From a virus, in the IMG/VR virus record IMGVR_UViG_3300042291_000207, positions 1 through 63,484 of that record: a stretch of DNA of 63,484 nt, one strand, 5' to 3'. Shown here one piece after another: positions 8,252-63,484 of the stretch (position 1 is its first letter; every line of letters starts with the position of its first letter). The translations under genes and the position numbers were made by a program. The notes beneath the pieces were generated by a model, which worked only from the letters and a program-made list of their open reading frames with translations, was not told the origin of the DNA and did not search any database.

Positions 8252-8827
8252 TTATGGACAAGTTACATAATTTGTAATCTCACCAGCTGTAGTGATTTCA
8301 ACAGCATATGTACCTGATGGTCCAATTAATTTGTGCCAACCTGGTGAACCAATGAATGGATTTGATAGAGGTGATTGTATTGTATAAAGTATCATTGTAA
8401 CAAATGGTACAGTAAATCCAGGTTGAGCCCATACTGATATTGTTGGGGATTGACCACAAGCCTCACCAGAAGTACCAGATGCTCCTGAATTAATTGTATA
8501 CATCACTGGGCTTGAAGATGTGGTAGTTGTGGTTGTTGTTGGAGGAACTGTGGTTGTGGTTGTAGTGGTTGTAGATGTACTAGTACTAGTTGTAGTGGTT
8601 GTAGAACATGGCACTACAGATATATCTGTATAGTTTGTACATGTTCCTGTAGACATAACACGAACGATTGTTGTACCGTTTGGAACTACTGTAGATGTAT
8701 ATCCAGCCAATAAGCTAGATCTTGATACACCTGTTACAAATGGTGTAGAATACGAATCTACATTTGAATATAGACTAAATGGTCCTGTTGAGGTGCCAGC
8801 TGTCGTTAATGTAATTAATACTGTCAT
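8252..8827 (-). CDS. Thr-rich virion (fibre/decoration) protein
   Basis: 191 aa in three parts. Residues 1-75 form a small beta-rich domain (TLTTAGTSTGPFSLYSNVD at the N-terminus, GTTIVRVMSTGTCTNY later). Residues 76-108 are a Thr/Ser tract with Pro interruptions. The C-terminal domain from about 110 contains two Cys and ends in TCP. This beta-domain/Thr-linker plan recurs in the two neighbouring fibre genes and suggests a surface-exposed, possibly glycosylated virion protein. It is the last gene before a terminator. I recognise the type as common in environmental Bacteroidota phages but know no experimental function. Confidence 0.65.
   Translation of the reverse strand: MTVLITLTTAGTSTGPFSLYSNVDSYSTPFVTGVSRSSLLAGYTSTVVPNGTTIVRVMSTGTCTNYTDISVVPCSTTTTTSTSTSTTTTTTTTVPPTTTTTTTSSSPVMYTINSGASGTSGEACGQSPTISVWAQPGFTVPFVTMILYTIQSPLSNPFIGSPGWHKLIGPSGTYAVEITTAGEITNYVTCP
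8517..8604 (-). repeat. Thr-codon repeat tract in the 191-aa virion protein
   Basis: ACN/TCN codon repeat, nearly the same units as at 3-140, 9344-9462, 9660-9916 and 12373-12437. Confidence 0.85.
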
Positions 8828-8849
8828 AATTTATTTATTGATTTTAATA

Positions 8850-10205
8850 TTAGAAGCTTCTTATTGCTTTAGCACGATATGAATTAGACTTATTATCACC
8901 AAGTCCAGTTCCATTTAAAAAGTTTATAGCAGATGCAAAGTTTGCACTACCACTTGTAGAAGTCCAATATGGAACATTTGCATAAACACCAATTGCAACT
9001 TTATTTGGGTATATACGCTCTAGTTCCTGTTGGCTTGGTAAGTACCAATCGCTGTATCCACCTTCTACTAAATCTCCACATAGTCTAGCTGGAATTCCTG
9101 CAGTAGGACAGCCTGCCATGATATCAATTGTATTTTGATTACCTGTACCTAGTGCATATTGAGTTGATATAAGTGTACCAGTACATCCCCAGGCTGCACC
9201 TGTTGAAACATCTGATACAGCAGCTACTAGTCCATGTTGAGAAAGTGGATCATATCCTGGATCAAAAGATTGTAGAATATAAGCTATGATACCACCTAAT
9301 GCTGCTTGACCAACTGTGTAAGTACCTGGTGGTATTGGAACAGAAGTAGTAGTTGTGGTTGTTGTTGGAGTAGCTGTAGTGGTTGTTGTAGTTGTGCTAC
9401 TTGAAGTAGTTGTTGTGGTGGTAGTTGGAGTTATGGTAGTAGTAGTTGTTGTTGTAGAACCTGGACATCCAACAAATCCTGTTGCTGCAATTGCATACAA
9501 CGTACCTCCTGGGTTTGTTGTCACAGATCCTGTAACTACCCATGTATTTCCTGGAGAGGTTACCCTATCATTAATTGCAAATGTTCCAAACGGATACTCT
9601 TCAGAATATGCTATAGAACTATCTTCACAGTTTGTTATTTGGTACCATATAGATAAAGGAGTAGCAGTGGTAGTAGTCGTTGTAGTGCTAGTAGATGTAC
9701 TAGTAGATGTAGTAGTAGATGTACTAGTTGTTGTTGATGTAGAACTAGATGTAGATGTTGTAGTGGTTGTAATAGGAACAGCGGTAGTTGTTGTTGTTGT
9801 TGTACTGCTACTGCTGGTAGTAGATGTTGTAGTTGTTGGTGTTATTGTAGATGTGGTGGTTGTAGTTGTTATTGGTATAACAGTTGTAGATGTAGTAGTT
9901 GTAGTTGGAGTGATGGCACAAGAGTTTACCAATGTACAGAACATCACCTTTAAAGATGGGTTCTGATTAATTACAGTGATGAGGGTTTGTACTAACTCTA
10001 TAGGTTCAAGTGCGTTATCTAGTTTCTGCAAAGCTAATGTCAATATATCCCCTGTATCAATTCCTGAGTTAGGAAGATCTGGGCCATTATATTGAACAGC
10101 TGATGTAGGAATAGGATAACCAGCAAATGCTCCATTATTACATTGCTGTGGATAATAGGCATTCACTGTATTCTCAAAGCAAGGGGTACCAGGTACGCAA
10201 GCCAT
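8850..10205 (-). CDS. Tail fibre / receptor-binding candidate with Thr-rich linkers and C-terminal DUF1566 (Lcl-like) domain
   Basis: 451 aa. Residues 38-65 carry YNGPDLPNSGIDTGD followed by a helical segment; a related YTGDPIPSLGIDTGD block opens the neighbouring fibre, so this is a likely shared attachment domain. Two Thr/Ser/Pro linkers (about 98-190 and 250-292) flank a beta domain. Residues about 295-451 match DUF1566/Lcl C-terminal domains: GGIIAYIL, HGLVAA, GGYSDWYLPSQQEL, PYWTSTS and the final AKAIRSF. Such domains are found on adhesins and phage fibres, so host recognition is the likely role. Length variation of the linkers is expected from the repeats. Confidence 0.8.
   Translation of the reverse strand: MACVPGTPCFENTVNAYYPQQCNNGAFAGYPIPTSAVQYNGPDLPNSGIDTGDILTLALQKLDNALEPIELVQTLITVINQNPSLKVMFCTLVNSCAITPTTTTTSTTVIPITTTTTTSTITPTTTTSTTSSSSTTTTTTTAVPITTTTTSTSSSTSTTTSTSTTTSTSTSTSTTTTTTTATPLSIWYQITNCEDSSIAYSEEYPFGTFAINDRVTSPGNTWVVTGSVTTNPGGTLYAIAATGFVGCPGSTTTTTTTITPTTTTTTTSSSTTTTTTTATPTTTTTTTSVPIPPGTYTVGQAALGGIIAYILQSFDPGYDPLSQHGLVAAVSDVSTGAAWGCTGTLISTQYALGTGNQNTIDIMAGCPTAGIPARLCGDLVEGGYSDWYLPSQQELERIYPNKVAIGVYANVPYWTSTSGSANFASAINFLNGTGLGDNKSNSYRAKAIRSF
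9344..9462 (-). repeat. Thr-codon repeat tract, linker 2 of the DUF1566 fibre
   Basis: Degenerate ACN repeat encoding about 40 residues of Thr with Ser, Pro, Ala and Ile, directly before the C-terminal domain. Confidence 0.85.
9660..9916 (-). repeat. Thr-codon repeat tract, linker 1 of the DUF1566 fibre
   Basis: The longest of the tracts: about 85 codons, nearly all Thr or Ser, with short IP, AVP and TP interruptions that suggest internal sub-repeats. Confidence 0.85.
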
Positions 10206-15411: not shown

Positions 15412-16965
15412 TTAGAATTGTGGTATTTCTTCGATTAATACTGTACGTGATAAATCTTCAATGAATACATCACAACGGTCTTTCATCCAAATCTCATAAC
15501 CAGGGAATTTGTTTGCAGAACTCATACCTTGAGACTTAGCAAAACCTAAGTGGTGACGAGTACCATCGATATAACCCCAAGTCATTGAAGGAGCACCCTT
15601 CATACGTACTTCACGGATGTTGTTTACCATTGAACCATCGCTCATTGGAGATACATCAAACACCATGAATACAGGAGTAGATTTTTTGTTCTGACCGAAT
15701 TCTAAGTTAGTTTGAGGAAGGTCTAATTCTTTTAAGTGAATTAGTTCAACACGACCTGTTTCACGTGTAACCATTGCATCGAATGCAAAGTTGTAAGTGA
15801 TGTGTTGACCTTCTCCTTGCATGTAGCGATTACCAGAATCAGCCATGAAAGTTAAACCAGAATTAAGTGCATCATTTTTAAGAGCTTGTTGGAACACATC
15901 AAAGCCAGCTTCGTTTGTGTACATTTTAACTCTACGATCCTTAACATCAACACGTCTGTAGAATAAGTCACCAAACACTGAACGAATCAAGTTTGCAGTG
16001 AACTCACCACGGTTGTATTGTACTAAGTTACCGTTATTACGCATTCTGTGGTAAACACCAGCAGATGTACGCTTTAATTCTTGCTTAGAACCATTAGTCT
16101 TCACGGTACCAGGCTTAGCCCAGATCATACGCTTAACTTTTAATTCTAACATAGACTTACGCATCCAGAACTCAATAAATGGTTCCCATTTAACATCGTT
16201 ACGAGTTAAAGGTAATTGGTTACGTCTTTGTGGAGCATATACTAAGATGTCAAGAGGCTTACCAGAAGCATCACGCATCATTTTATCATCAGCCCACTCA
16301 GTGATCTTGTGCTCATAACCATATGCAGAACCTAAAGATTCAAACATAGTGATTTGCTCACCTAAACGAGGAAGACCTAATAAGTCTTGATCGAATTCAC
16401 CGATAGCAGCATCAACTAATTCTAGTTCGATACCAGTTTGTAAGAAAGTAGCACTTACGTAATCTACTTGAGGGTTGTCAGTCACAAGAGTGAATGTGTA
16501 CAAGAAACCAGCGTTCCAAGGTTGAGGATCCTTGATAACGTAGAAACGAGGACCATACTGACGAGTACCTACAGAAACAATAGCGTTCTTAGAAAACTCA
16601 TTTGTGTCAATTACAAGAGAAAATTCTTGACCATCGATACCTGGCTTATCTAAAGCTAGAGTGGTATCAGGGATGTCAATGATTTTTGGAAACTTGTAAG
16701 GAACTTGTACTTGCCACTTCCAAGCATCACTGTTATTATCGATATAGTAAGGAGTAGACTTGTTGATCATGTCTAGGAAATCATTACTGTAAAGAGAACT
16801 CTGAGTATACAAACTGATAATTTTCTTATCATAATCTGCTGGCTCAGTTGAGTGAAAACTCTCCAAGTGGTTAGAATCTGTTAACTTACCTACTGCACGC
16901 TTGTCCATAGAAGCAACACGAGCATACGTAAATCCAGTTAAACCTGGGATTGTTTGAATTGCCAT
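15412..16965 (-). CDS. Major capsid protein (crAss-like, HK97-fold expected)
   Basis: 517 aa, close to the roughly 500 aa usual for crAss-like capsid proteins. The N-terminus (GLTGFTYARVASMDKRAVGK), DYDKKIISLYTQSSLYSNDF and the C-terminal VFIEDLSRTVLIEEIPQF fit that family as I recall it. Its location after the acidic scaffold-like gene and before connector genes, the individual hairpin after its stop and the even codon use all point to the main shell protein. No separate protease or delta domain is evident. HK97 fold is inferred from family membership, not seen directly. Confidence 0.8.
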   Translation of the reverse strand: MAIQTIPGLTGFTYARVASMDKRAVGKLTDSNHLESFHSTEPADYDKKIISLYTQSSLYSNDFLDMINKSTPYYIDNNSDAWKWQVQVPYKFPKIIDIPDTTLALDKPGIDGQEFSLVIDTNEFSKNAIVSVGTRQYGPRFYVIKDPQPWNAGFLYTFTLVTDNPQVDYVSATFLQTGIELELVDAAIGEFDQDLLGLPRLGEQITMFESLGSAYGYEHKITEWADDKMMRDASGKPLDILVYAPQRRNQLPLTRNDVKWEPFIEFWMRKSMLELKVKRMIWAKPGTVKTNGSKQELKRTSAGVYHRMRNNGNLVQYNRGEFTANLIRSVFGDLFYRRVDVKDRRVKMYTNEAGFDVFQQALKNDALNSGLTFMADSGNRYMQGEGQHITYNFAFDAMVTRETGRVELIHLKELDLPQTNLEFGQNKKSTPVFMVFDVSPMSDGSMVNNIREVRMKGAPSMTWGYIDGTRHHLGFAKSQGMSSANKFPGYEIWMKDRCDVFIEDLSRTVLIEEIPQF

Positions 16966-16999: not shown

Positions 17000-18262
17000 T
17001 TATTGAAACCATGAAGTTGTAGGCTTAGGCTTATTTCCTGTTTTTGTAGAACTTTTGCTAACTTGTCTAGCAACTTCACCAAACAATTCATTTGACTTTT
17101 TGGTGATACCAGTCTTTTGTATTGTAGATAGAGTAGGATCCTTTTCTAAAATCTTTAGTAACAGTCCAATCTTAACCTTTGTTGCATGGTTTTCTGGACG
17201 TTTAAGTTCTAGAATAGTACGATCAAAATCTGTGAGAGTCTCACCAGATGCTGTCTTATACTTATCTACTAACAGGAAATCTTGTAGTTCACCAGCCAAT
17301 TTAGGGTTCAGAGGAATACCGTCAAACTCTTTTGTTTTTAGTTTTTCTTGTAATACTGACTGAACGTTTTGAAAGTATTGCTGTTTAACAGCAGCTTGCT
17401 GTTGTAATCTTCTTTCATTCTCTTGCTCCATTTCTTGAAGCTTTGCAGCTTCTTTCTTAACCAACACTTTGTGGTGTTTAGTAGCAACAGTTTCCAAATC
17501 ACCGTAATTCTTAAGTCTTTCAACTTCTGTTGTAACATCCTCAGGATCAAATCCTTGATCGTTGAGTGCTTGTTTAATTACTGCAATTTGGTTAGCTTCG
17601 TCTGCTAAATCCATCTCAGCAAAACTCTTTATATTATTAAAAGTACCGAAATACTCTTTTGGATCTACTCCTTTTACAAATATGGCATCAAACGCTTGTT
17701 GATAATCTTCTCCAAATTGACCAATGAAGTTGTTTACCACCTCAATAGCTCCTTTCTTCTTCTCAGCTTGGAAACGCTCAAGAAATTCTTCAGGAGTGGA
17801 AATTGCAACATCCTCTTCATCTTCATCGTTGGTAAATACACCAAGTTTGAAAAGATCTTTAGATAGAGATGTGAATGGACTAGCTGGTTCATCACCTTCT
17901 ATTTCTTCATCATCTTCTGTATCTACAGGAGCTTTTGCTTTGGGAGCTGGAGCAGGAGAATCATCTTCATCCTCTTCCTCTTCATCATCTCCACCTAGTA
18001 AAAAGTCCTGTAAAGACTTTGCATTATCTTCTTTCTTTTCCTCATCATTCTCTTCTGAAGCATCAGCAGGAGCTGGTGTCTTTTTTGCAGGTTTAGGTGC
18101 AGGAGCAGGTTCATCTTTAATATCTTGGATATCATCAGGATTGGTAGTAGAAGTTTCAGGAGCAAATAAATCGCTTAAAAGTTCTTGGTTTCCCATACCC
18201 ATTTCCATAGTATCTTGAATACTAAAGTTTCCCATTGATGGGTTTTCTAGATTTTCAGCCAT
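17000..18262 (-). CDS. Acidic coiled-coil protein, probable scaffold or internal head protein
   Basis: 420 aa. Residues 1-135 are disordered, very acidic and Pro/Ala-rich (repeats such as PAPAPK and DDEEEEDEDD). Residues about 140-330 are mostly helical, with a Gln/Glu coiled coil (KLQEMEQENERRLQQQAAVK). The basic C-terminus ends TTSWFQ. Placement just before the major capsid gene and this composition match scaffolding proteins of other tailed phages; a permanent internal protein cannot be excluded. The C-terminal basic patch could bind capsid subunits, as in lambda-type and P22-type scaffolds. Confidence 0.65.
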   Translation of the reverse strand: MAENLENPSMGNFSIQDTMEMGMGNQELLSDLFAPETSTTNPDDIQDIKDEPAPAPKPAKKTPAPADASEENDEEKKEDNAKSLQDFLLGGDDEEEEDEDDSPAPAPKAKAPVDTEDDEEIEGDEPASPFTSLSKDLFKLGVFTNDEDEEDVAISTPEEFLERFQAEKKKGAIEVVNNFIGQFGEDYQQAFDAIFVKGVDPKEYFGTFNNIKSFAEMDLADEANQIAVIKQALNDQGFDPEDVTTEVERLKNYGDLETVATKHHKVLVKKEAAKLQEMEQENERRLQQQAAVKQQYFQNVQSVLQEKLKTKEFDGIPLNPKLAGELQDFLLVDKYKTASGETLTDFDRTILELKRPENHATKVKIGLLLKILEKDPTLSTIQKTGITKKSNELFGEVARQVSKSSTKTGNKPKPTTSWFQ

Positions 18263-18382: not shown

Positions 18383-18913
18383 CTAATCAAGATTGTTTGT
18401 AATTGTGTCATTTATTAGCCTGTAACTCCTAATTGGAGCTAAATCAGTGAGTGTAACTTGTTGAATGTCAACACCCCACTTCCTTGCTTCAACCCTTACC
18501 TTCTTAGTTAATGTGTTATCAAGTTCTGCATCTGTACATTCTTCCAGGGACATAGCCATGATTACATTTTTTATGACACTTTGTGACATGTCAGCTATTG
18601 CATCTTGGGCATCAAACACTTCTAGCAGGAATGTTTTTACATCTGATATCTTGTATTTGATTACACCCTTGACAACAATGTTCTGTTTATCACTAGTATA
18701 CAAAGATTGTGCTGGAAGACTTAATGTTGTCACAACGACATGTTGCTCAATCACCTCATCTGCAAACGGTATCTTTACATGGAATCCAGGTTTTAATAAC
18801 TTTTTAAACTTGCCAAATCTTAGAAGCACAGCCTCCTCGTAATCCCTAATAATAATACCAGGGAGTACGTCTGAGCCAAATTGTAACACAACGTCAATTA
18901 GCCTATCTAACAT
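18383..18913 (-). CDS. SPFH/band-7 (stomatin-prohibitin) domain protein
   Basis: 176 aa. The sequence VLPGIIIRDYEEAVLLRFGK, KPGFHVKIPFADEV and a run of KNIVVKGVIKYKISDVKTF-type strands are typical of SPFH domains. Residues 140-165 (VRVEARKWGVDIQQVTLTDL) match the later part of the same domain. There is no clear membrane helix, only a mildly hydrophobic N-terminus. The gene lies between portal and scaffold, with the portal stop only 2 bases away, so it is co-expressed with head genes. SPFH proteins form oligomeric rings on membranes; here a role in head assembly or DNA entry is possible but unproven. Confidence 0.8.
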   Translation of the reverse strand: MLDRLIDVVLQFGSDVLPGIIIRDYEEAVLLRFGKFKKLLKPGFHVKIPFADEVIEQHVVVTTLSLPAQSLYTSDKQNIVVKGVIKYKISDVKTFLLEVFDAQDAIADMSQSVIKNVIMAMSLEECTDAELDNTLTKKVRVEARKWGVDIQQVTLTDLAPIRSYRLINDTITNNLD

Positions 18914-45426: not shown

Positions 45427-47745
45427 ATGATACTAGAAAAACAGACAGAAGCAACTATCCTACAAGAAGGAGAATCACAAGAATCAATTGGAATGTCATT
45501 AGATCTGGACTCAGCTCAGGTGCTAATGCAAATGTTAAGTAAGAATTTATATTCAGATGCAATAGGTTCCACTATTCGTGAGTGTGCCTCTAATGCATTA
45601 GACAGTCACAGAAGAGCAGGTATTGATAAACCAATCATCGTTAGCCTTAATAGGAATAACCATGATAACTATGAATTCTCTGTAGAGGATTTTGGTATTG
45701 GTCTAGATGCAGATGATGTAGTTAATATCATCAGCAAATACGGTAAGAGTACAAAACGTGATAGCAACACAGAATTAGGCATGATGGGTCTTGGTTTCAA
45801 GGCCCCACTAGCATACACATCTACCTTCTATTTCACTGCAAGGAAAAATGGAATGGAAAGAAAATACATGATGTATGAGGGAGAAGAAGTTAATTCAATT
45901 GATTTACTTCATGAGACTCCCACAGATCAGCCAAACGGTGTTAAGATAACTATACCAGTTGACTATTACGACAGACATGATTTTGTACGTAAAATTAGAG
46001 AACAGCTAGCTTATTTTGAGAATGTATATTTCAATGTACTAGATAATGAGGTGAAGAATGATTTCACCATCCATAGATCTGAGTACTATCAAGCTTCTAG
46101 CTTATCTAGAGATAGCTATTTACATGTTTGTTTAGATAACGTGTATTATCCATTGGATTTCAGCAAGTTAGGTATTGATAGAATATCTATTCCTGTAGGT
46201 TTGAGATTCAGTCTTACAGATGGTTTGTTCCCTACACCAAACAGAGAATCCATCAGATATACCAAGGAAGCAAAAGATATCATCCTGGCTAAGATTGGTA
46301 AGATGGTTGATCATTTTATTACCAAATACAATGAAACTGTTGCTGATTCTGATGATTTCATGGCTGTATTGAGATATCATGCTACAAACAGAAGATATGT
46401 TAATGTTCCTGGTAAGGATAATCATAACTTTGATCTAACTGATATAGTTAAACACGGTACTGTTCTAATCGCTTCTCCTAAAGTGAGCAGTCTAAAGAAG
46501 CTTGACTTACAAAAACTTGTCAGAAACAGAGAATACATTCTTGGTGAGTATGATAAGAAGTTTGAGCTTTACAATGGTAGAATGTCTCAAGTGAAGAGTT
46601 ATTGGAGAACTGGTGTTGATATTATAAACAGGAATGATGAACCACACTATTTTTATTCTGAGAAGATTAGTGGTGCTATGAAGGATTATATTAAGAGTAT
46701 AGCCCCAAGAGGTAGACATGCATATTTCATTAGAAAAGTGAAGACATTTAAATTGGGTAGTCTTACAAGGATGAATGATTATGATACTTACATGAAGCTT
46801 CTTGACTTACAGAATTATCCAAGAACTGAGTGGAGAGAACTTATTGCAGAGTTTCAAACTGTATTAGCTTCTCTTACAAAGACATTCATCAACCTTGATG
46901 AAATGGTAATACCACAAGCTTTCCTAGATTCTAGGAAGAAGCAAAAGGGAATCACTGTTACTGTTGGTGGAACAAAGGTGAGACGTATTAAGTTAGAAGG
47001 TGAGGTGATTGGTAGACAATTAGTGGATTTAGAAAGAAGTGTAGATGGTAAGAATTCTAAACTGGTTAGCAAGATTTATGGCCTTGCTGAAATGCATAAG
47101 TATAACAAGCTTGTTATCTATGGTACCCAGGCAGATATTGCTACTATGGACAAACTATATTCAATTATCAATAAGAGTAAGATAGAACTAGCTGTATTTT
47201 CTGAGAGAGAGCTTAAGACACTATCTACCATTAATATACACAATCTAATCCCTTTAAGCAAGTTTATGGAAGGTAAAAACAAACCATTCAAGAGAATTCT
47301 AACAGCCTATCTAATTAATGAATTACATAATAAGTTTAGTAGATCATTCATTAGAAGAGAAAAAATAAGTCTCATCTCTACAGATTTATATGAAAAGATG
47401 AAAAAACTAAATGACTACAAGAATGAACATCATTGCCATGGTAATGCTACAGTGCATTTAGCTATGCTAGAAGTGGCTCAAACACACAACTTATTTGATA
47501 TGGAGATATATCATGAGTATGTGGAAGTGAAGAACCTTCTAGAAAGATTACCATTCATTGAAGCTATGTCAGACAAAATACAGAGTTATGATAATGATAA
47601 CTCTCCGATAATCAGTGCATTTCGTGATCTATTCAAGTATCATGGACATAGAATTGACTGGAAACACTACAACATTCGTATTAACGAAGAGGTTGTAGAA
47701 GAGTTAACAGAAGCTTCTGTAGAGCAGTTGGTAGAGAATTTATAA
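45427..47745 (+). CDS. rIIA-like GHKL ATPase
   Basis: 772 aa. N-terminal GHKL (gyrase/Hsp90/histidine kinase/MutL) ATPase: N box IRECASNALDS (E52, N56, D59), G1 box VEDFGIG (D88-G92), G2 region GMMGLGFKAPLA (118-129). The remainder is mixed alpha/beta (SIPVGLRFSLTDGLFPTPNR region; C-terminal helices). T4 rIIA proteins share this N-terminal fold and are always paired with rIIB, as here with the following gene. T4 rII proteins counter a prophage exclusion system (Rex). A membrane-associated anti-host-defence role is inference. Confidence 0.75.
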   Translation: MILEKQTEATILQEGESQESIGMSLDLDSAQVLMQMLSKNLYSDAIGSTIRECASNALDSHRRAGIDKPIIVSLNRNNHDNYEFSVEDFGIGLDADDVVNIISKYGKSTKRDSNTELGMMGLGFKAPLAYTSTFYFTARKNGMERKYMMYEGEEVNSIDLLHETPTDQPNGVKITIPVDYYDRHDFVRKIREQLAYFENVYFNVLDNEVKNDFTIHRSEYYQASSLSRDSYLHVCLDNVYYPLDFSKLGIDRISIPVGLRFSLTDGLFPTPNRESIRYTKEAKDIILAKIGKMVDHFITKYNETVADSDDFMAVLRYHATNRRYVNVPGKDNHNFDLTDIVKHGTVLIASPKVSSLKKLDLQKLVRNREYILGEYDKKFELYNGRMSQVKSYWRTGVDIINRNDEPHYFYSEKISGAMKDYIKSIAPRGRHAYFIRKVKTFKLGSLTRMNDYDTYMKLLDLQNYPRTEWRELIAEFQTVLASLTKTFINLDEMVIPQAFLDSRKKQKGITVTVGGTKVRRIKLEGEVIGRQLVDLERSVDGKNSKLVSKIYGLAEMHKYNKLVIYGTQADIATMDKLYSIINKSKIELAVFSERELKTLSTINIHNLIPLSKFMEGKNKPFKRILTAYLINELHNKFSRSFIRREKISLISTDLYEKMKKLNDYKNEHHCHGNATVHLAMLEVAQTHNLFDMEIYHEYVEVKNLLERLPFIEAMSDKIQSYDNDNSPIISAFRDLFKYHGHRIDWKHYNIRINEEVVEELTEASVEQLVENL

Positions 47746-47752
47746 CAAAAAA

Positions 47753-47827
47753 GGAAATATATTGCTTATTTGCATGAATTTTTCTAAAATTTCATGCATT
47801 TTCCCTCCAAATGAGCAATATATTTCC
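47753..47827 (+). other. Long nested inverted repeat between the rII-like genes
   Basis: Outer arms GGAAATATATTGCTTATTTG (47753-47772) and 47808-47827 pair over 20 bases with one G/T wobble. Inside, GCATGAA (47772-47778)/TTCATGC (47791-47797) forms a second stem extended by TTTT/AAAA. No strong U-tract follows (caattttaat). Could be a processing or attenuation structure, or an RNA switch. Confidence 0.75.
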
Positions 47828-47866
47828 AATTTTAATACATTATTTTAAAACAAAAAACAAAACAAA

Positions 47867-49471
47867 ATGGGACTATTCAGTTTAAGCTGGTTCAAGAGCC
47901 AGAAACAAAAGCAATTAGATGAATTACAACATGAGATTGAGCTTAAAAGGTTAGAGAAGACACTAGAAAGATTGGATCAACAAGAGAAACCTTCTACTTA
48001 CACAATAGGGGTTAGTAATCCATGGGTAGCACCCACTGCACCAGTTTGTGTACCTGCCCCTAAGCCTTATTCCAACATTAAGATTGTGAATGATGTGCTT
48101 ACAGTGGTGCTTAACGATGGTTCTATCATTACTAAGTCTAAAGCTACAGCAGAAGACTTTAATAATGCCAGAGAATGTAAGACAGAAGCTTGTTTATTGA
48201 GCCTTGTAGGTTCTCCAGATATACTAAAGGAGAAGCAGGAAGCACAGGCTGCATATGAGAAAGCTAAGGCTATTCAGAAAGGTGTTGAGTATCTAGCTAA
48301 GTTTGATGATTTTCAGATGAAAGACGGATCTCTTTATATCAAGGGAATCAACAGAAGCATCCCACCTTTGATGGTAGATGAGTTCTTACGCATCATTGGA
48401 TTTCACAGTTACAACTCTATGGACAATGTAACAGATAGAGAAATAGATGAGGTAAATGAGCTTATCCAGCAAGACGAAGAGTATCAATCTCTTAAGCGTT
48501 TCTTTATGTGGTGTTGCTTAAATCCAAGAGCTGAGGTGGCTGACAAGCTATACAACTTCTTAAAGAAGAATAGCTTCCGTATCACTAAGCAAGGATTCTT
48601 TGTAGCATTGCGTAACGTTGTAACATTACATGGATCTACAGAGCTAGTACAATTCATCAGCAATGCTTACAACAAGACTAAAGCTGTATGGAAGAAGAAC
48701 CCATCTGACTATTTAGTATTCTTACAAGATGGTCAATACAAAATGGTTCACAAATCTATATTTGAAGAAAAAGAAACATGCACATATTGTGATGGTTCAG
48801 GAACAGTTCCTTGTGAAGCTGATGAATATGATGAAGACTATGATTGTTATGATGAAGATAGCTGTGATTGTCCAGAGTGTGATGGTACAGGTGAAGTTTA
48901 CAAATATGATAAATCTAATTATGGTGAAGAGATTGGTAACCTAACTGAACTCTATCTTGATTTGCCTAATAGAGCAGAGAATAGATTTACAGATGCTCAC
49001 ACAAGAACATTTGACATCAGAATTGGTAGACCAGTGAACATGCCTATGGAGCAGTGTAGATGGAATACTGATGATTGTGGTGCTGAAGGTTTACACTTCA
49101 CATCTGATGAGATTCATTATGTAGGTTGTGGTGACACATCTGTGCTTGTACTTATCAATCCAATGAAGGTTGTAGGTATTGGTGAGAGTAAAGGTAGATG
49201 CTATGAGTATTTACCAATTATGACTGTTCCTCGTGAAGAAGCAACAACCATCTTACATGATCTAGACTTTGATACAATGGAGCTTGATGAGAGCTATGCA
49301 GTTCGCGAATTGGAAAATCTAAGTACAAAAGCTAGAGAAGGTTTTATTGCAGAAGCTAAGAAGTATGAGTTTAATCTCCCTGCTTTATCTGCTGTAGAAG
49401 TACTTAAAATTGTTAAGAGTCTTGATGAAATAAGACAAGAAATCTCTAAGAGAATCGTAAATATTGATTAA
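47867..49471 (+). CDS. rIIB-like protein with DnaJ-type zinc-finger repeats
   Basis: 534 aa. The C-terminal region carries the rIIB-type block GRPVNMPMEQCRW...CGAEGLHFTS and VLVLINPMKVVGIGE. Residues 305-342 contain CTYCDGSG and CDCPECDGTG, the CxxCxGxG repeats of DnaJ zinc fingers, separated by an acidic Asp/Glu/Tyr loop with further Cys (316, 327, 333, 335, 338). The N-terminus (1-40) is a coiled coil. Located just after the rIIA-like gene and the nested hairpin. A zinc-bearing adaptor working with the ATPase is likely. Confidence 0.72.
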   Translation: MGLFSLSWFKSQKQKQLDELQHEIELKRLEKTLERLDQQEKPSTYTIGVSNPWVAPTAPVCVPAPKPYSNIKIVNDVLTVVLNDGSIITKSKATAEDFNNARECKTEACLLSLVGSPDILKEKQEAQAAYEKAKAIQKGVEYLAKFDDFQMKDGSLYIKGINRSIPPLMVDEFLRIIGFHSYNSMDNVTDREIDEVNELIQQDEEYQSLKRFFMWCCLNPRAEVADKLYNFLKKNSFRITKQGFFVALRNVVTLHGSTELVQFISNAYNKTKAVWKKNPSDYLVFLQDGQYKMVHKSIFEEKETCTYCDGSGTVPCEADEYDEDYDCYDEDSCDCPECDGTGEVYKYDKSNYGEEIGNLTELYLDLPNRAENRFTDAHTRTFDIRIGRPVNMPMEQCRWNTDDCGAEGLHFTSDEIHYVGCGDTSVLVLINPMKVVGIGESKGRCYEYLPIMTVPREEATTILHDLDFDTMELDESYAVRELENLSTKAREGFIAEAKKYEFNLPALSAVEVLKIVKSLDEIRQEISKRIVNID

Positions 49472-49479
49472 CTTTGTAG

Positions 49480-49503
49480 GACCAGGGGCTAAAATCCCTG
49501 GTC
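49480..49503 (+). terminator. Terminator after the rIIB-like gene
   Basis: GACCAGGG/CCCTGGTC (8 bp), loop of 8, then ttatatt. A TAACTTTG (TAnnTTTG) match at 49469-49476 overlaps the stop codon just before it. Confidence 0.75.
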
Positions 49504-49516
49504 TTATATTAAGCTT

Positions 49517-49918
49517 ATGAAAAAGAACGCAACAAAGAGAAGAGCAAAAATACCTAGAGCTAAGTCTGTTAAGGTGAGAAATGCTGGTACTATGACAGAA
49601 TCAGCATTTTGGAGCTTCATTAGGAGTGCTTTGAGACAGAAATCTAGATGGTGGAAACCTATTACAGAATGCAAGATGAAAGCTCGTAGGGCATATAAAG
49701 GTCCCAGTAAGAGACAAAAGTTTGAGTATCAATGCAATAGCTGTAAAGCATGGTTTCCAGAAAAACAAATTAACGTAGATCACATTAAGCCTGCAGGTAG
49801 TCTTAACTGTAAAGAGGACTTATCAGGATTTGTAGAGCGTCTGTTCTGTGAACTAGATAATCTACAGGTATTATGTGAATCTTGTCATGATGTAAAAACT
49901 AAATTAGAGAAAAAATGA
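49517..49918 (+). CDS. HNH endonuclease
   Basis: 133 aa. Basic N-terminus, then CNSCKAWFPEKQINVDHIKP and DNLQVLCESCHDVKTKLEKK: two CxxC pairs and the VDHIKP...NLQxLCxxCH pattern of HNH nucleases. Probably a free-standing homing nuclease or a DNA-processing enzyme. Its stop overlaps the next start (ATGA). Confidence 0.85.
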   Translation: MKKNATKRRAKIPRAKSVKVRNAGTMTESAFWSFIRSALRQKSRWWKPITECKMKARRAYKGPSKRQKFEYQCNSCKAWFPEKQINVDHIKPAGSLNCKEDLSGFVERLFCELDNLQVLCESCHDVKTKLEKK

Positions 49919-59831: not shown

Positions 59832-59861
59832 AAAAAGCCCTCCATTTCTGGGGGGCTTTTT
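59832..59861. terminator. Bidirectional terminator between converging operons
   Basis: AAAAAGCCCTCCA/TGGGGGGCTTTTT, 13 bp, loop of 4, with A/T tracts on both sides, so it can stop both the plus-strand operon and the minus-strand cluster. Confidence 0.9.
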
Positions 59862-59862
59862 A

Positions 59863-60003
59863 TTATTTTGATAATTTCTTACCAGTCATAGGAGCCATAG
59901 GGCTCTTACCTTTGTTTCTAGTATTATCTGATTCCCTCATATAAGGCTTATTAGGCTTAGGGTTCTTAACCTTAGGAGCTAAACGTGGTTTACCTGATTT
60001 CAT
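59863..60003 (-). CDS. Small basic protein
   Basis: 46 aa: KSGKPRLAPKVKNPKPNKPY, then GKSPMAPMTGKKLSK. Lys/Pro-rich and unstructured; shares bases with the stop of the gene before. Member of the basic cluster, ending two bases before the bidirectional terminator. Confidence 0.55.
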   Translation of the reverse strand: MKSGKPRLAPKVKNPKPNKPYMRESDNTRNKGKSPMAPMTGKKLSK

Positions 60004-60554
60004 TAGCAACCATATTTACATTTGCTCATAGACTTACCCATCTTAGCTTTACCACTGTAGTTCTTACCAGGTTGTCTACCATAACTACCAAGTTGCATAG
60101 ATACAGTTTTACCAGACTTAGCAGCAGGGGCTTTTTTAGCAGCTCTAGCAGCTTTACGTTCTGCTCTAGCTTCTTGACGCTCTTCTTTAGTTTTACCACC
60201 AGTTAAGACATTTTTGATAGCTTGACCAGCTTTTTGAAGAGGACTAGGTCCACCTTGGAAATATCTTTGTCTTTGAGCACCAGTCATGTTTGATACACAT
60301 CCGCCTCTTTGAGCTTTCTTAATAGTTTTACCAGCTTTAGCCTCAGGAGCAGATTTAGCAGCTTTTTTAGCAGCTCTTTTTTCAACTCTTTCTTCTTTGC
60401 GTTCTGCTCTTGCATTTTCACGCATTTGCTTGTTACCAGCTCTTCTTAATTGACCTTCAGTACCACCTCTAAAGAAATTAGTTCTCTCTTGAGAAGACAT
60501 GTTTGATACACAACCACCCCTTTGGGCTTTTTTAACCTTTTTAACAGTTGCCAT
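60003..60554 (-). CDS. Basic protein with duplicated KKAQRGGCVSNM unit
   Basis: 183 aa, rich in Lys, Arg, Ala and Gly. The 12-residue unit KKAQRGGCVSNM occurs at 8-19 and 79-90, and related AKAGK and AKSGK motifs at about 73-77 and 150. C-terminus ends in Cys. Charge suggests DNA compaction or an internal, packaged protein. The duplication suggests unequal exchange. Two more KKAQxG proteins lie in the cluster. Confidence 0.65.
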   Translation of the reverse strand: MATVKKVKKAQRGGCVSNMSSQERTNFFRGGTEGQLRRAGNKQMRENARAERKEERVEKRAAKKAAKSAPEAKAGKTIKKAQRGGCVSNMTGAQRQRYFQGGPSPLQKAGQAIKNVLTGGKTKEERQEARAERKAARAAKKAPAAKSGKTVSMQLGSYGRQPGKNYSGKAKMGKSMSKCKYGC

Positions 60555-60566
60555 TTTTATAAGTTT

Positions 60567-61067
60567 TTATTTTTTAACAATTTTTTTACTAACTTTACCA
60601 CCAGCTTTTTTCTTTGGTGTTGCACCTTTAGCATTTATGATTGATTTTACAATCTTTCTGCCATATTTTTTAGGTTTTGCAGGATAATCTTTATATACAC
60701 CTGATTCTAATCCTTCTAAATACCTACCAGTACCTTTGAATGTTTTCTTACCACCAGCATAGCCAGTGGTATCAACAGCTAGTCTTCTTTTTGGATAACG
60801 AACACCTTTAGTTTCATAAACTAATGAGTCACCAGACTGAGCTTTTTTTGCTCTTGCAGCTTTTGCACGCTCTCTTAATGGTATAGACATTTTGCTTGGT
60901 GGCTTAACTGAACTTGGTTTAACTGAACGTAAAGCTCTTTTTTGTACACGAGCAGCTACTCTTTCAGCCCTTTCAGGGTCTTTCTTTTCTATTCTGTGTA
61001 TTCTGTCATCTTGTGATTTTCTTTTAACAAGATGATCACCAAGTTGTGCTTTTTTTACCTTTGCCAT
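60567..61067 (-). CDS. Basic protein with KKAQxG motifs
   Basis: 166 aa from the ATG at 61067; an upstream start at 61118 lies within the preceding gene. KKAQLG at 5-10 and KKAQSG at 74-79. Residues 25-48 (RIEKKDPERAERVAARVQKR) match a segment of the 248-aa paralogue (RIAEKNPDRADKVSDRMKER). The remainder is basic with GGK repeats. Likely virion-internal or DNA-binding; function unknown. Confidence 0.6.
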   Translation of the reverse strand: MAKVKKAQLGDHLVKRKSQDDRIHRIEKKDPERAERVAARVQKRALRSVKPSSVKPPSKMSIPLRERAKAARAKKAQSGDSLVYETKGVRYPKRRLAVDTTGYAGGKKTFKGTGRYLEGLESGVYKDYPAKPKKYGRKIVKSIINAKGATPKKKAGGKVSKKIVKK

Positions 61068-61068
61068 T

Positions 61069-61509
61069 TTAACAGTTCCATTTACGAAGTGATTTATTAA
61101 TTCTGCTGTTAGGGTCATTAGCCGTTTTAGCAGACGTGAGTTTCTTTTTCATACCTGACATTCTAGAACAGAAAGACTTACGTCTACTTGCTGCTTTAGA
61201 ACCAGCTTTGAGTTTTGAAGGTTTAGTAGTAACAGCTGTCTTCAGCTTACTACCTGGATTAGCTTTTCTATAAGAAGCTACACCCTTAGCGTTTAAACCA
61301 CCTTCAGGATTCTTACCTTCTTTTCTTTGCCATGCTGGGCTAACCTTACCACCGTCCTTTAATGTAGAGCCTTTAAACTCTCCCTTCTTTTTAACAAGAG
61401 GACCATTAGGAACAGGAGTGATTTTACCACCAGTTCTAAGAACTCCCTTACCAACATAGGCTTCAGCCTTTTGTGGGTTATATACCTTTGTTTTAGGAAT
61501 TCTAGCCAT
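61069..61509 (-). CDS. Conserved basic phage protein (DUF6321-like)
   Basis: 146 aa. The core WQRKEGKNPEGGLNAKGVAS, then RRKSFCSRMSGMKKKLTSAK and NDPNSRINKSLRKWNC match a family I recall as DUF6321, widespread in phages and some giant viruses. Basic and Gly-rich N-terminus (GGKITPVPNG). No KKAQxG motif. Function unknown, possibly DNA-binding in the virion. Confidence 0.7.
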   Translation of the reverse strand: MARIPKTKVYNPQKAEAYVGKGVLRTGGKITPVPNGPLVKKKGEFKGSTLKDGGKVSPAWQRKEGKNPEGGLNAKGVASYRKANPGSKLKTAVTTKPSKLKAGSKAASRRKSFCSRMSGMKKKLTSAKTANDPNSRINKSLRKWNC

Positions 61510-61510
61510 G

Positions 61511-61672
61511 TTATTTACCTTTACGCTTTGCAGCTATCTTCTTAAATGTTTTAGCAAGAGCTTTAGCCCTACCTGTACAACCAGGTTTTGTGATAGGAGT
61601 GCATTTGCCTTCTGTACCTCTAGCCTTAATAGACTTAGTTACTTTCTGCATCCACTTTTTATCTGTAGCCAT
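61511..61672 (-). CDS. Small basic protein
   Basis: 53 aa: TDKKWMQKVTKSIKARGTEG, with CTPITKPGC and a basic helical tail. Shares a base with the stop of the gene before it and starts 1 base before the next. Part of the basic cluster; similar short proteins occur in other Bacteroidota phages. Confidence 0.6.
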   Translation of the reverse strand: MATDKKWMQKVTKSIKARGTEGKCTPITKPGCTGRAKALAKTFKKIAAKRKGK

Positions 61673-62418
61673 TATTTTTTCTTTTTCATTTTACCACCCA
61701 TCTTCATCTTTGTAGCACCTAACTGTTTGTCCTTCTTAAGACTTACAGAGGTTTTAACGTTACGAGGAGGTAAGTTCATTTCTTGAACCTTAGTCCAAGC
61801 ACCTTTAGGATCAACAGGTCCTACACGCTTATTAGAAGCAGTTAATCCAGCCTGAGCTTTCTTAATCTTTCCACCAAGTTTCATACCACCAACTTTATTA
61901 ACAGAAGATTTTCTTGGTTTTTCTAAACTCTTCATCATCATTTCTCTCCTTCTAGCAGCATCACTGTCCTTACTCATAGAACGAATAGATAATCTATCTC
62001 TTCTAGATCTATCAAATAAATCACCTTCTATTCCTCCTGCCATACCAGTTCTTCCTTTAGGTGTAAGAACAGGTGGTTTTTGAACTTGTGTTGTATCACC
62101 ATCTTGAGCCTTCTTAACTTTAGCACCCTTCTTAGCAATAACACCACGTCCTTTAAGGATGTCAGCCTTAGTAATCTTACCATCCTTGTTTAAGTCTGGG
62201 AATGATTTACCATCTTTAGCTTTAGGTAGCATGTTGGAAGCTCTAGAGCCACTGCTCTGAGCAACTCTTTTACCACGTTCTAAACGTGTAGCTCTTTCCT
62301 TCATGCGATCAGATACTTTATCAGCTCTGTCAGGATTTTTTTCTGCTATTCTACCAAGTCTTTTGTATTGTCCTCTTCTAAGTTTAATACCAGATTGGGC
62401 TTTTTTAACTTTTGTCAT
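61672..62418 (-). CDS. KKAQxG protein with EF-hand-like loop
   Basis: 248 aa, very basic. KKAQSG (5-10), KKAQDG (102-107) and KKAQAG (186-191). Residues 75-86 DLNKDGKITKAD fit the 12-residue EF-hand/dockerin calcium loop (D, N, D, G, I, D at 1, 3, 5, 6, 8, 12). The 20-48 segment matches the 166-aa paralogue. Ends in a Lys-rich tail. A packaged or structural protein that is calcium-sensitive is a reasonable hypothesis, not proven. Confidence 0.6.
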   Translation of the reverse strand: MTKVKKAQSGIKLRRGQYKRLGRIAEKNPDRADKVSDRMKERATRLERGKRVAQSSGSRASNMLPKAKDGKSFPDLNKDGKITKADILKGRGVIAKKGAKVKKAQDGDTTQVQKPPVLTPKGRTGMAGGIEGDLFDRSRRDRLSIRSMSKDSDAARRREMMMKSLEKPRKSSVNKVGGMKLGGKIKKAQAGLTASNKRVGPVDPKGAWTKVQEMNLPPRNVKTSVSLKKDKQLGATKMKMGGKMKKKK

Positions 62419-62423
62419 CTTAT

Positions 62424-62504
62424 TTATATATTAGATTGTTCTAGACATTTAGGACATTGTCCTTCCTCAAGAGCTATTTCATGTATGGAGCAATGATCGT
62501 TCAT
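62424..62504 (-). CDS. Zinc-ribbon-like microprotein
   Basis: 26 aa: DHCSIHEIALEEGQCPKCLE has His/Cys and CPKC, enough for one zinc site. Its start overlaps the stop of the 49-aa gene. Too short to be sure. Confidence 0.4.
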   Translation of the reverse strand: MNDHCSIHEIALEEGQCPKCLEQSNI

Positions 62505-62653
62505 TACTTCTTACTCTTAGCCTTGATTTTCTTTTCCTGCTTAAGCATAGCAGCTGTAGGTTTCTTACCTGAGCCTTTAGCAGCACGAATGTTATCCCAC
62601 AACCCACGTTGTGAAACAGAACCATCCTTGCGTTTAATCATTTCTTTTGCCAT
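62504..62653 (-). CDS. Small basic protein
   Basis: 49 aa: IKRKDGSVSQRGLWDNIRAA, then a Lys-rich helix (EKKIKAKSKK). Start/stop overlaps its neighbour. Probably DNA- or RNA-binding by charge. Confidence 0.55.
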   Translation of the reverse strand: MAKEMIKRKDGSVSQRGLWDNIRAAKGSGKKPTAAMLKQEKKIKAKSKK

Positions 62654-62656
62654 AAC

Positions 62657-62950
62657 TTATTGATTTTCAGCTTCTTTAATAACACCAGCTTCTACTGATC
62701 TAGCTAAAACTTGCTCAACCGTATTGTTAGCTCTGTTAGCTAAAAGGATACGAGCAGCTTCTTCTGTAGCTAATTGTGCACGTAGTGAGTTAAGGATTAC
62801 ACCAAACTCAGCACCGTTGATAACAAAGATATCATCTGTATTCCAGGTGTATTTCTTGTTAGGATCGTACTTAATGGGCTCTTGAACAGGTTCTTGAATA
62901 TTTACTTCTTCTTGACCTGGAGTTACTTCTTGTACTAATTCTTCTGACAT
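62657..62950 (-). CDS. Conserved small acidic protein, first of the basic cluster
   Basis: 97 aa. Acidic disordered start (EELVQEVTPGQEEVNIQEPV), then KYTWNTDDIFVINGAEFGVI and a helical end (EEAARILLANRANNTVEQVL). Follows a good promoter. Resembles a small phage protein I have seen in related genomes; function unknown. Confidence 0.6.
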   Translation of the reverse strand: MSEELVQEVTPGQEEVNIQEPVQEPIKYDPNKKYTWNTDDIFVINGAEFGVILNSLRAQLATEEAARILLANRANNTVEQVLARSVEAGVIKEAENQ

Positions 62951-62975: not shown

Positions 62976-63007
62976 CAAAGATATGTATTTCTACAATATC
63001 TACCAAA
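62976..63007 (-). promoter_or_regulatory. Promoter of the basic-protein cluster
   Basis: On the minus strand TTTG (63007-63004), 20 bases, TATCTTTG (62983-62976). Full Bacteroidota match; the first start is 26 bases on. Confidence 0.75.
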
Positions 63008-63016
63008 TTTATTTTA

Positions 63017-63484
63017 CTATCTGAACACCTTCTTTTCCTTCCAAGCTTGATCGTAGTGTATATTCTTATGTGCACCATCATAAACAAGTCCAAAATGGTT
63101 TGATAACTTAGTTAAAAAGACATTTTTAGCATCTTTATCACATACAAATCCACCTGAATATCTATGTTGTAAGATTCTAGATCCGTTATAATCCCCTAAA
63201 GATATTTCCTTACTACGAGGATTAAGATTGTATCCTTTATGTAGGAACGCTTGACCTAACACTGTAGGACCTGTAACATCTAATGAACTAATGCCATGAT
63301 TATTAGTCCTAATATTTTTAGCACTTATGTCAATAGCTTTTGCAATTATTTCATCTCCTGGTTTAGCACACATTACAGCATTATATAAGAAAGACTTATT
63401 AGAAGGATCATCTCTAACAAACACTCGATCAACCCCTTCTGTAAGTTCATCATACGATACTAGAGGAATCTGTGAGAAATCACC
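63017..63484 (-). CDS. GT32/OCH1-like glycosyltransferase, C-terminal part (5' end outside)
   Basis: About 155 residues are visible and the frame stays open to the window edge, so the N-terminus and true start are missing; an internal GTG at 63424 is not the start. FLYNAVMCAKPGDEIIAKAI, NNHGISSLDVTGPTVLGQAF and the C-terminal HKNIHYDQAWKEK fit the last part of GT32/capsular-polysaccharide transferases, which follow the DxD motif. Probably transfers a hexose. A fourth glycosyltransferase-like gene of the window, read against the other three. Confidence 0.7.
   Translation of the reverse strand, partial: GDFSQIPLVSYDELTEGVDRVFVRDDPSNKSFLYNAVMCAKPGDEIIAKAIDISAKNIRTNNHGISSLDVTGPTVLGQAFLHKGYNLNPRSKEISLGDYNGSRILQHRYSGGFVCDKDAKNVFLTKLSNHFGLVYDGAHKNIHYDQAWKEKKVFR

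Follow-up and report, generated by a model that had tools for sequence, protein, structure and literature searches.

KKAQxG links shuffled cassettes in basic proteins that are probably head cargo of a crAss-like phage

What does a short peptide do when it stands near the start of three neighboring basic proteins of a phage and occurs again deeper within each of them? The peptide is KKAQxG, and the three proteins are encoded in a virus record of 63,484 bases (IMG/VR record IMGVR_UViG_3300042291_000207; the window, hereafter, is this whole stretch of DNA) whose gene content points to a crAss-like phage. The original prediction for this locus took the proteins for cargo packaged with DNA and the peptide for a sorting tag, a cleavage site or a repeat unit. 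We find that KKAQxG is a flexible linker between shuffled cassettes, and the three proteins are probably modular, lysine-rich, largely disordered internal virion proteins (head cargo), packed and ejected with the DNA, in which KKAQxG serves as linker and as N-terminal cap.

In a six-frame translation of the window KKAQ occurs exactly seven times, always on the minus strand, in three basic proteins and nowhere else, with three copies in the open reading frame (ORF) 62418-61672, two in 61067-60567 and two, both KKAQRG, in 60554-60003; a DNA pattern scan for the motif gave seven reverse and no forward matches, and a reversed control pattern gave none. The proteins, with lengths in amino acids (aa), and the copies in the first of them from the motif scan, are as follows.

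61672..62418, minus strand: KKAQxG protein 1, 248 aa; cap, RIAEKNPDRA, EF-hand-like and GPVDPKGAW cassettes, KMGGKMKKKK tail
62389..62406, minus strand: KKAQSG, residue 5 of the 248-aa protein
62098..62115, minus strand: KKAQDG, residue 102 of the 248-aa protein
61846..61863, minus strand: KKAQAG, residue 186 of the 248-aa protein
60567..61067, minus strand: KKAQxG protein 2, 166 aa; KKAQLG at 61055-61038, KKAQSG at 60848-60831
60003..60554, minus strand: KKAQxG protein 3, 183 aa; two KKAQRGGCVSNM units (60533-60516 and 60320-60303), C-terminal KCKYGC

The 166-aa protein is taken from its ATG at 61067, 17 codons into the mechanical ORF; several relatives begin MAKVKKAQ or MAKIKKAQ. On this count the first copy in the three proteins begins at residue 5, 5 and 8, and their N-termini read MTKVKKAQSG, MAKVKKAQLG and MATVKKVKKAQ. 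The seven copies, their N-terminal plus internal placement and the strong basicity of the proteins (isoelectric points of 10.65-11.08 in five operon proteins measured, one computed with a longer ORF start) are as originally predicted. When the three proteins are shuffled at fixed composition, 0.01 copies arise on average and none of 20,000 shuffles reaches seven; no 4-mer of any kind reached seven copies in 2,000 shuffles. The seven copies are written with six codon spellings, which indicates that the peptide is what is conserved. When the window is taken together with G001, a 114,224-base record described below (131 ORFs), the pattern K[AM][QK]xG occurs 10 times in the basic gene cluster against 0.55 expected. 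Outside the cluster it is found twice in minus-strand genes, both times in the same 1087-aa protein, and no plus-strand gene has it. The three proteins matched nothing significantly in PHROGs, Pfam or NCBIfam, the 248-aa protein had no relative in the named phage collection, where two short cassette queries matched zero and one record, and no paper in the open PMC library combines KKAQ with phage. A PADLOC match to DpdA (E 0.0023) falls in a basic repetitive stretch and was judged spurious.

To place the motif in a wider context, we collected relatives in three scans: a first of 22 loci, with KKAQ in one of its six search patterns; a second of 9 loci; and a third, queried with a cassette protein and without KKAQ in its patterns, of which the best 80 of at least 265 loci confirmed among 599 stretches were used. 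The third scan supplied a second protein set of 312 unique basic proteins, none from contigs used earlier, and here 82 proteins, from 43 loci, hold 92 copies of KKAQxG where 0.55 would be expected. The cluster proteins are strings of short cassettes (DUF6321, GLWDN, CW-GY, an EF-hand-like loop and others) that also occur as separate genes: GLWDN is a 49-aa gene in the window and stands behind KKAKAG in fusions of other phages, WMQK..CTP is a 53-aa gene in the window and is fused in other phages, and DUF6321 is fused in the window and a separate gene elsewhere. With seven cassettes anchored by regular expressions picked by eye, a KAQxG- or xGG-type element lies just upstream of 50 of the 58 fused cassettes in the first set, as against 18.1 at random positions in the same proteins (KAQxG type alone, 29/58 against 10.0); of 50 distinct junction strings, 46 have such an element. 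The second set has 104 distinct junctions, 90 of them with a linker element where 29.1 were expected (KAQxG type alone, 59 against 14.0), and several of the other 14 show near variants such as KNG; the sequences within each set are related, so that these trials are not independent. In both of these sets the DUF6321 junctions are of the xGG type, with KAQxG at 0/10 in the first set and 0/13 in the second. Motifs lie outside cassettes 90 times (6374 residues) and inside them 16 times (5358 residues). The suggestion of a repeat unit is thus borne out in the form of a linker.

Cassettes are also exchanged by recombination at this linker. At a joint in one relative (L010), the 90 nucleotides (nt) upstream equal the flank of copy 2 in the window at 88/90 positions, the 90 nt downstream equal the flank of copy 3 at 88/90, and the switch point lies inside the KKAQ codons, AAG AAR GCT CAR; the segment between the KKAQDG and KKAQAG copies of the 248-aa protein is missing there. 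The codons of the second protein suggest a like exchange, and another relative (L015) has, by eye, the reverse order of the two units in its third protein.

The gene neighborhood is kept among relatives. Over both sets we counted 94 distinct contigs, each once and with G001 itself and two antisense ORFs left out, 72 of them with a KKAQxG protein, and of these 72, 57 have a same-strand homologue of this phage's genes upstream and 57 a convergent homologue downstream, with homologues on both sides in 45, on either side in 69 and on neither in three (L363, L364 and L379). The commonest are an 89-aa gene downstream (53 contigs) and a 93-aa gene upstream (52); RecA follows the basic cluster in 31 and a Dps-like gene precedes it in 49 (L009:6079-6483; G001 2241-2645), the name Dps-like coming from phrog_858 and DUF5856 in L009. 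A motif search of related genomes had been proposed as a check, with scattered, non-syntenic matches as the adverse outcome; that outcome did not occur, and 69 of the 72 contigs keep flanking genes. In two relatives a 207-aa GIY-YIG endonuclease gene is inserted in the basic cluster (L009:7286-7909 and L012:6675-7298; PF01541 E 2.7e-11 for L009).

The setting of the cluster is consistent with a role in the virion. Structural genes occupy the minus strand, and the basic cluster is the downstream end of that unit, followed by a terminator-like stem-loop and then by plus-strand genes in convergent orientation, RecA and dUTPase among them. From the gene content of the minus-strand unit we infer late expression, and the cluster is probably expressed late.

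15412..16965, minus strand: Crass major capsid protein (MCP), PF23898 E 5.6e-29, which anchors the crAss-like assignment
59832..59861, strand not assigned: terminator-like stem-loop where the minus and plus units converge (listed on plus by the scan; T run on the minus side by eye)

Pfam models also match CrAss_Ring_1 and Ring_2 above cut-off, Ring_3_4 below it, P22_portal and Bac_DNA_binding (HU/IHF-type), and phrog_6547 and phrog_6681 are matched, which PHROGs labels portal and terminase without a crAss name. The phage thus belongs to the Crassvirales by its MCP, ring proteins, P22-like portal, crAss-type TerL and IHF-like protein. The window apparently lies whole inside G001 at offset 50,694, since its first 60 bases, its last bases and the seven motif places agree. 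The ends of G001 overlap by 172 nt (168/172 identical) inside a glycosyltransferase gene (PF04488), which indicates a near-complete circle of about 114.05 kb. The window record (63359-63484) also stops near this overlap, and the circle is perhaps broken by strain variation.

The connection to phage heads comes chiefly through DUF6321 (PF19846), a clear member of which is the C-terminal cassette of one cluster gene (about 61317-61078; E 4.7e-20, 72.4 bits against a Pfam cut-off of 28.5). Among the cluster proteins tested, only this one exceeds the cut-off; the three KKAQxG proteins do not match.

61069..61509, minus strand: 146-aa protein; NPQKA and TPVPNGPL cassettes, KDGG linker, DUF6321 cassette

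In the phage collection 535 records (duplicates included) match DUF6321, chiefly those of cyanophages and pelagiphages. In P-HM2 and S-SM1 it forms the C-terminus of a protein encoded between gp16 and gp17, and HTVC115P has it as a gene of its own, two genes past the capsid gene. The T4 internal proteins IPII and IPIII start MKTYQEFIAEA, the T4 capsid-targeting sequence (CTS), which directs proteins into the prohead core (PMC3012670, PMC9958956). One P-SSM7 protein has the start MKTYSQFIEE, then a GLWDN-like cassette (E 0.0036) and then DUF6321. Among 1,233 ORFs of seven named genomes (two taken without their last 2-4 kb), 15 have a CTS-like start, including 2 of the 7 DUF6321 proteins. From a larger collection, the best 80 of at least 590 stretches confirmed among 600, we recognized 72 DUF6321 ORFs. 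A strict CTS pattern stands at the ORF start of 4 of them, and a wider one, for which an internal Met among the first 70 residues may also serve as start, in 7/72 as against 7/802 other ORFs (Fisher p 4e-5, an optimistic value because the pattern was widened after the 4/72 result). The CTS-like peptide directly abuts DUF6321 in L160, L168, L172 and L177, and L171 resembles this arrangement and falls outside the pattern. Two of the seven CTS-like ORFs without DUF6321 carry the CW-GY cassette. The CTS-like MVTFKEFITE (L141:3261-3518) and MITFKEFITE (L190:203-448) stand shortly before CW-GY, which makes this another cassette class that can follow a T4-type targeting sequence.

Prohead protease sites have a hydrophobic position in [LIVMF]xE. 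Upstream of DUF6321 we examined 39 junctions, each with at least 12 residues upstream, and found [LIVMF]xE in 16 (background 5.8%), GG or GS in 24, both in one and neither in none. Prohead proteases of T4 and of giant phages cleave after E, as described in PMC5694885.

PMC3037559 (Sullivan 2010) reports 41 proteins detected in S-SM1 virions and names gp14, gp21 and T4-GC190 among them. Within the part of the P-HM2 record from 85,001 to 183,806 (147 coding sequences, CDS), the note 'similar to Synechococcus phage S-SM1 protein' is attached to 11 CDS, namely gp13, gp14, gp15, gp18, gp19, gp20, gp21, gp23, gp3, T4-GC190 and T4-GC119, the last being the DUF6321 protein; it is missing from gp16, gp17, gp22 and the replication genes, and PHM2_169, a CDS with the name virion structural protein, lacks it as well. 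On this pattern we take the note to flag the S-SM1 virion set, and the S-SM1 homologue with DUF6321 was probably detected in virions. The open PMC library has no paper that names DUF6321 and, by listing, one T4 review for 'capsid targeting sequence' with 'cyanophage'; a wider literature search gave no title or abstract opening that describes such a system. The prediction of cargo packaged with DNA is thus supported indirectly, by the end of the structural strand, the synteny, the CTS-bearing cassettes of T4-like phages and the S-SM1 homologue, and the crAss-like versions are probably inside the head.

Several points weigh against head cargo, beginning with limits already given: cassettes picked by eye, trials that are not independent, KKAQ in one pattern of the first scan and a p-value obtained with a widened pattern. 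KKAQxG is missing from five of the eight counted cluster genes. The CTS is missing from 5 of the 7 DUF6321 proteins in named genomes and, by the wider pattern, from 65/72 in the larger collection, L172 and L177 require an internal Met as start to have one, and in Greip the DUF6321 gene lies away from the capsid genes. Phages of other types, and mostly this one cassette, supply the head evidence, detection of the S-SM1 homologue rests on a record note, and we found no virion proteomics for this crAss-like clade. Of the crAss001 cargo proteins proven by mass spectrometry, gp46, gp47, gp49 and gp50 have no KAQxG, and gp45 has one.

If the proteins are head cargo, lysine-rich and mostly disordered chains would be made together with the structural proteins and taken into the head, where their lysines may neutralize the packaged DNA by phosphate contact, and they would exit with the DNA at ejection. 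In T4 internal proteins lysines contact DNA phosphates, according to PMC3012670. KKAQxG and its variants (KAKxG, KMQYGG, KxGG) would be flexible joints, with KKAQxG also a common N-terminal cap (MAxVKKAQxG), and repetition of the linker would let recombination swap cassettes. An AlphaFold2 model of the 248-aa protein (predicted local distance difference test, pLDDT, 51.7) has predicted helices at 15-55 and 131-166, and its KKAQ copies lie in or border stretches with pLDDT below 50. The model of the DUF6321 protein (pLDDT 63.9; helices 74-83, 105-124 and 136-143) had no Foldseek match in PDB, and the family has no sequence relative there.

By comparison with known systems, the system would be a variant of phage internal head proteins. 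Like T4 IPI-IPIII, which have a CTS and are processed by gp21, it consists of small proteins that share a conserved N-terminal element and differ in the body that follows, and in T4-like marine phages the DUF6321 cassette class stands directly behind a CTS-like sequence ending in E. However, the window proteins have no CTS, their N-termini being unlike MKTYQEFIAE, the phage has no gp21-type protease by the S77 model, and its conserved element is also internal and repeated. The cyanophage T4-GC119 proteins (S-SM1 SSM1_115, P-HM2 PHM2_112) share the C-terminal DUF6321, preceded by CW-GY in SSM1_115, but they are longer, and the DUF6321 junction of PHM2_112 is of the [LIVMF]xE kind (VSE, by eye) rather than KKAQxG. 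In crAss001, protein cargo is stored in head and tail, according to PMC10172136. The crAss001 cargo proteins gp45, gp46, gp47, gp49 and gp50 likewise belong to a crAss-like phage but are large, and the cassette models gave one weak match at that locus (DUF6321 model, E 0.007), in an unrelated small gene, and none in the cargo proteins.

Among other explanations, the one that survives best, and which we regard as doubtful with a real chance of being right, is that KKAQxG is itself a capsid-targeting signal, the N-terminal MAxVKKAQxG taking the part of the T4 CTS in this clade. The pattern KK[AM][QK]xG is present in 106 proteins of the second set, with its first copy at residues 4-9 in 61 of them; the amino acids are conserved despite the varied codons, the linkers occupy the place that the CTS or [LIVMF]xE sites have in T4-like proteins, and KAQVG also occurs in the 1087-aa minus-strand protein. 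However, only three of the eight cluster genes have the motif, many copies are internal, and it is absent from most crAss001 cargo and from many stand-alone cassette genes of relatives. The idea of a strict sorting tag is weakened accordingly.

A broader proposal, which we hold to be rather unlikely as a whole, is an encapsidation code, in which cassettes capped by KKAQxG or xGG, and a cassette (PGxxGFTYAR) of large minus-strand proteins that copies the MCP N-terminus, would bring varied cargo into the head, with recombination at linkers building new cargo from cassettes partly shared with T4-like marine phages, where the T4 CTS would do the same job. The MCP N-terminus (window 16965-15412, residues 1-16), IPGLTGFTYAR, resembles a cassette, LPGAVGFTYAR, at about residues 508-520 of a 1272-aa minus-strand protein (G001 45829-49647; L123:5829-9647), with KKAMGG before it; in BLASTP the two proteins match at E 0.033 only, over 13 residues. 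A DNA scan of IMG/VR for PGxxGFTYA (at least 80 loci) gave, among the matches listed, 77 ORF occurrences, of which 58 are MCP N-termini, 18 are in other proteins as a GG-linked or similar cassette and one is spurious. PGxxGFTYA is absent from the crAss001 MCP. PGxxGFTYAR is possibly a capsid-mimic packaging peptide.

It is unlikely that the basic proteins bind nucleic acid in the infected cell, for example host DNA or RNA, instead of being virion proteins. Their basicity and predicted disorder would suit such binders, this clade offers no direct virion evidence, and the flanking Dps-like gene could likewise act in the cell, but T4-type capsid-targeting sequences on some homologous cassettes and the probable detection of the S-SM1 homologue argue for the virion. 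We consider it distinctly improbable that KKAQxG is a recombination joint only, repeated DNA that keeps cassettes exchanging while the peptide is inert. The crossover inside the KKAQ codons and the reversed unit order are what such a joint would leave, but a single peptide written in six spellings suggests that selection acts on the amino acids, and the motif is also kept at N-termini, where there is nothing to join.

Least probable, and hardly to be expected, is a maturation cleavage site at which polyproteins are cut at each copy, as T4 gp21 cuts internal proteins: [LIVMF]xE does take the same place upstream of DUF6321 in T4-like phages (16/39 junctions against 5.8%), cassettes exist as stand-alone genes and as fusions, and the 1272-aa protein has a sub-threshold match to a putative metallopeptidase family (DUF6782, E 0.0019), but the residue after Q varies freely, the word protease is nowhere in the crAss001 virion atlas text, and near-complete G001 has no match to Peptidase_S77 (gp21-type), found once each in the T4-like controls P-SSM7 and P-HM2, or to HK97-type S78, which leaves cleavage without an enzyme and the predicted processing at the motif without support. 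A cut after Q by a 3C-like protease was also considered and rejected, the next residue being almost anything.

The remaining features complete the cluster, for which we counted eight genes (97, 49, 248, 53, 146, 166, 183 and 46 aa). The count leaves out a 26-codon stretch, possibly an ORF, that lies between the 49-aa gene and the 248-aa gene.

62976..63007, minus strand: promoter-like site TTTG-N20-TATCTTTG, Bacteroides-type, upstream of the 97-aa gene
62657..62950, minus strand: 97-aa protein (ORF), first gene past the promoter-like site
62504..62653, minus strand: 49-aa stand-alone GLWDN cassette protein (ORF)
62137..62205, minus strand: EF-hand/dockerin-like loop cassette SFPDLNKDGKITKADILKGRGVI, residues 72-94 of the 248-aa protein
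61511..61672, minus strand: 53-aa stand-alone WMQK...CTP..C cassette protein (ORF)
59863..60003, minus strand: 46-aa last cassette gene (PRLAPKVKNPKPNKPYM...LSK); its cassette model matches the relatives' homologues

The cluster had been predicted to have its own promoter, and the site at 63007-62976 makes this plausible. Its pattern, TTTG-N20-TATCTTTG, which we take to be the Bacteroides-type promoter consensus, has 8 matches in the window against 2.0 expected, so that the site alone is no proof. In an alignment of the window with four relatives, TAnnTTTG is intact in the window and in three of the relatives (L009, L021, L025), and L026 differs from it by one base. By eye, L009, L012 and L021 have homologues of the 97-aa protein upstream of their basic genes. 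In relatives the GLWDN cassette is fused behind KKAKAG or KSGG linkers, and T4-like proteins match it more weakly (E 0.0036 and 0.0016). The SFPDLNKDGKITKADILKGRGVI loop is identical in 9/9 rows of an alignment of the window and eight relatives, with variants outside it, for example in L028; matches to Dockerin_1 (E 0.04, 14.6 bits against a cut-off of 22.9) and EF-hand_5 (12.0 against 25.9) fall below threshold, and the likeness is one of the loop only. Elsewhere in the window, an SPFH/Band 7 protein (18383-18913) lies between the portal and an acidic ORF (17000-18262) that is scaffold-like by eye, and minus-strand proteins at 8252-10205 have long poly-threonine runs, which also occur in fiber-like genes of relatives. 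A search of the genome collection gave 82 pattern-matching stretches, none of them confirmed, and hence no prophage and no host.

To our knowledge, how proteins are selected for the heads of phages other than T4 is little understood. A gene cluster that recurs in viral metagenomes without a named function gains a probable role here, that of modular head cargo whose cassettes are partly common to crAss-like and T4-like phages. DUF6321, which has no function in Pfam, gains a concrete head-cargo hypothesis from its place directly behind a capsid-targeting sequence in some T4-like phages. If it is true that the linker or the capsid-mimic cassette directs packaging, either would be a ready tag for loading crAss-like heads.

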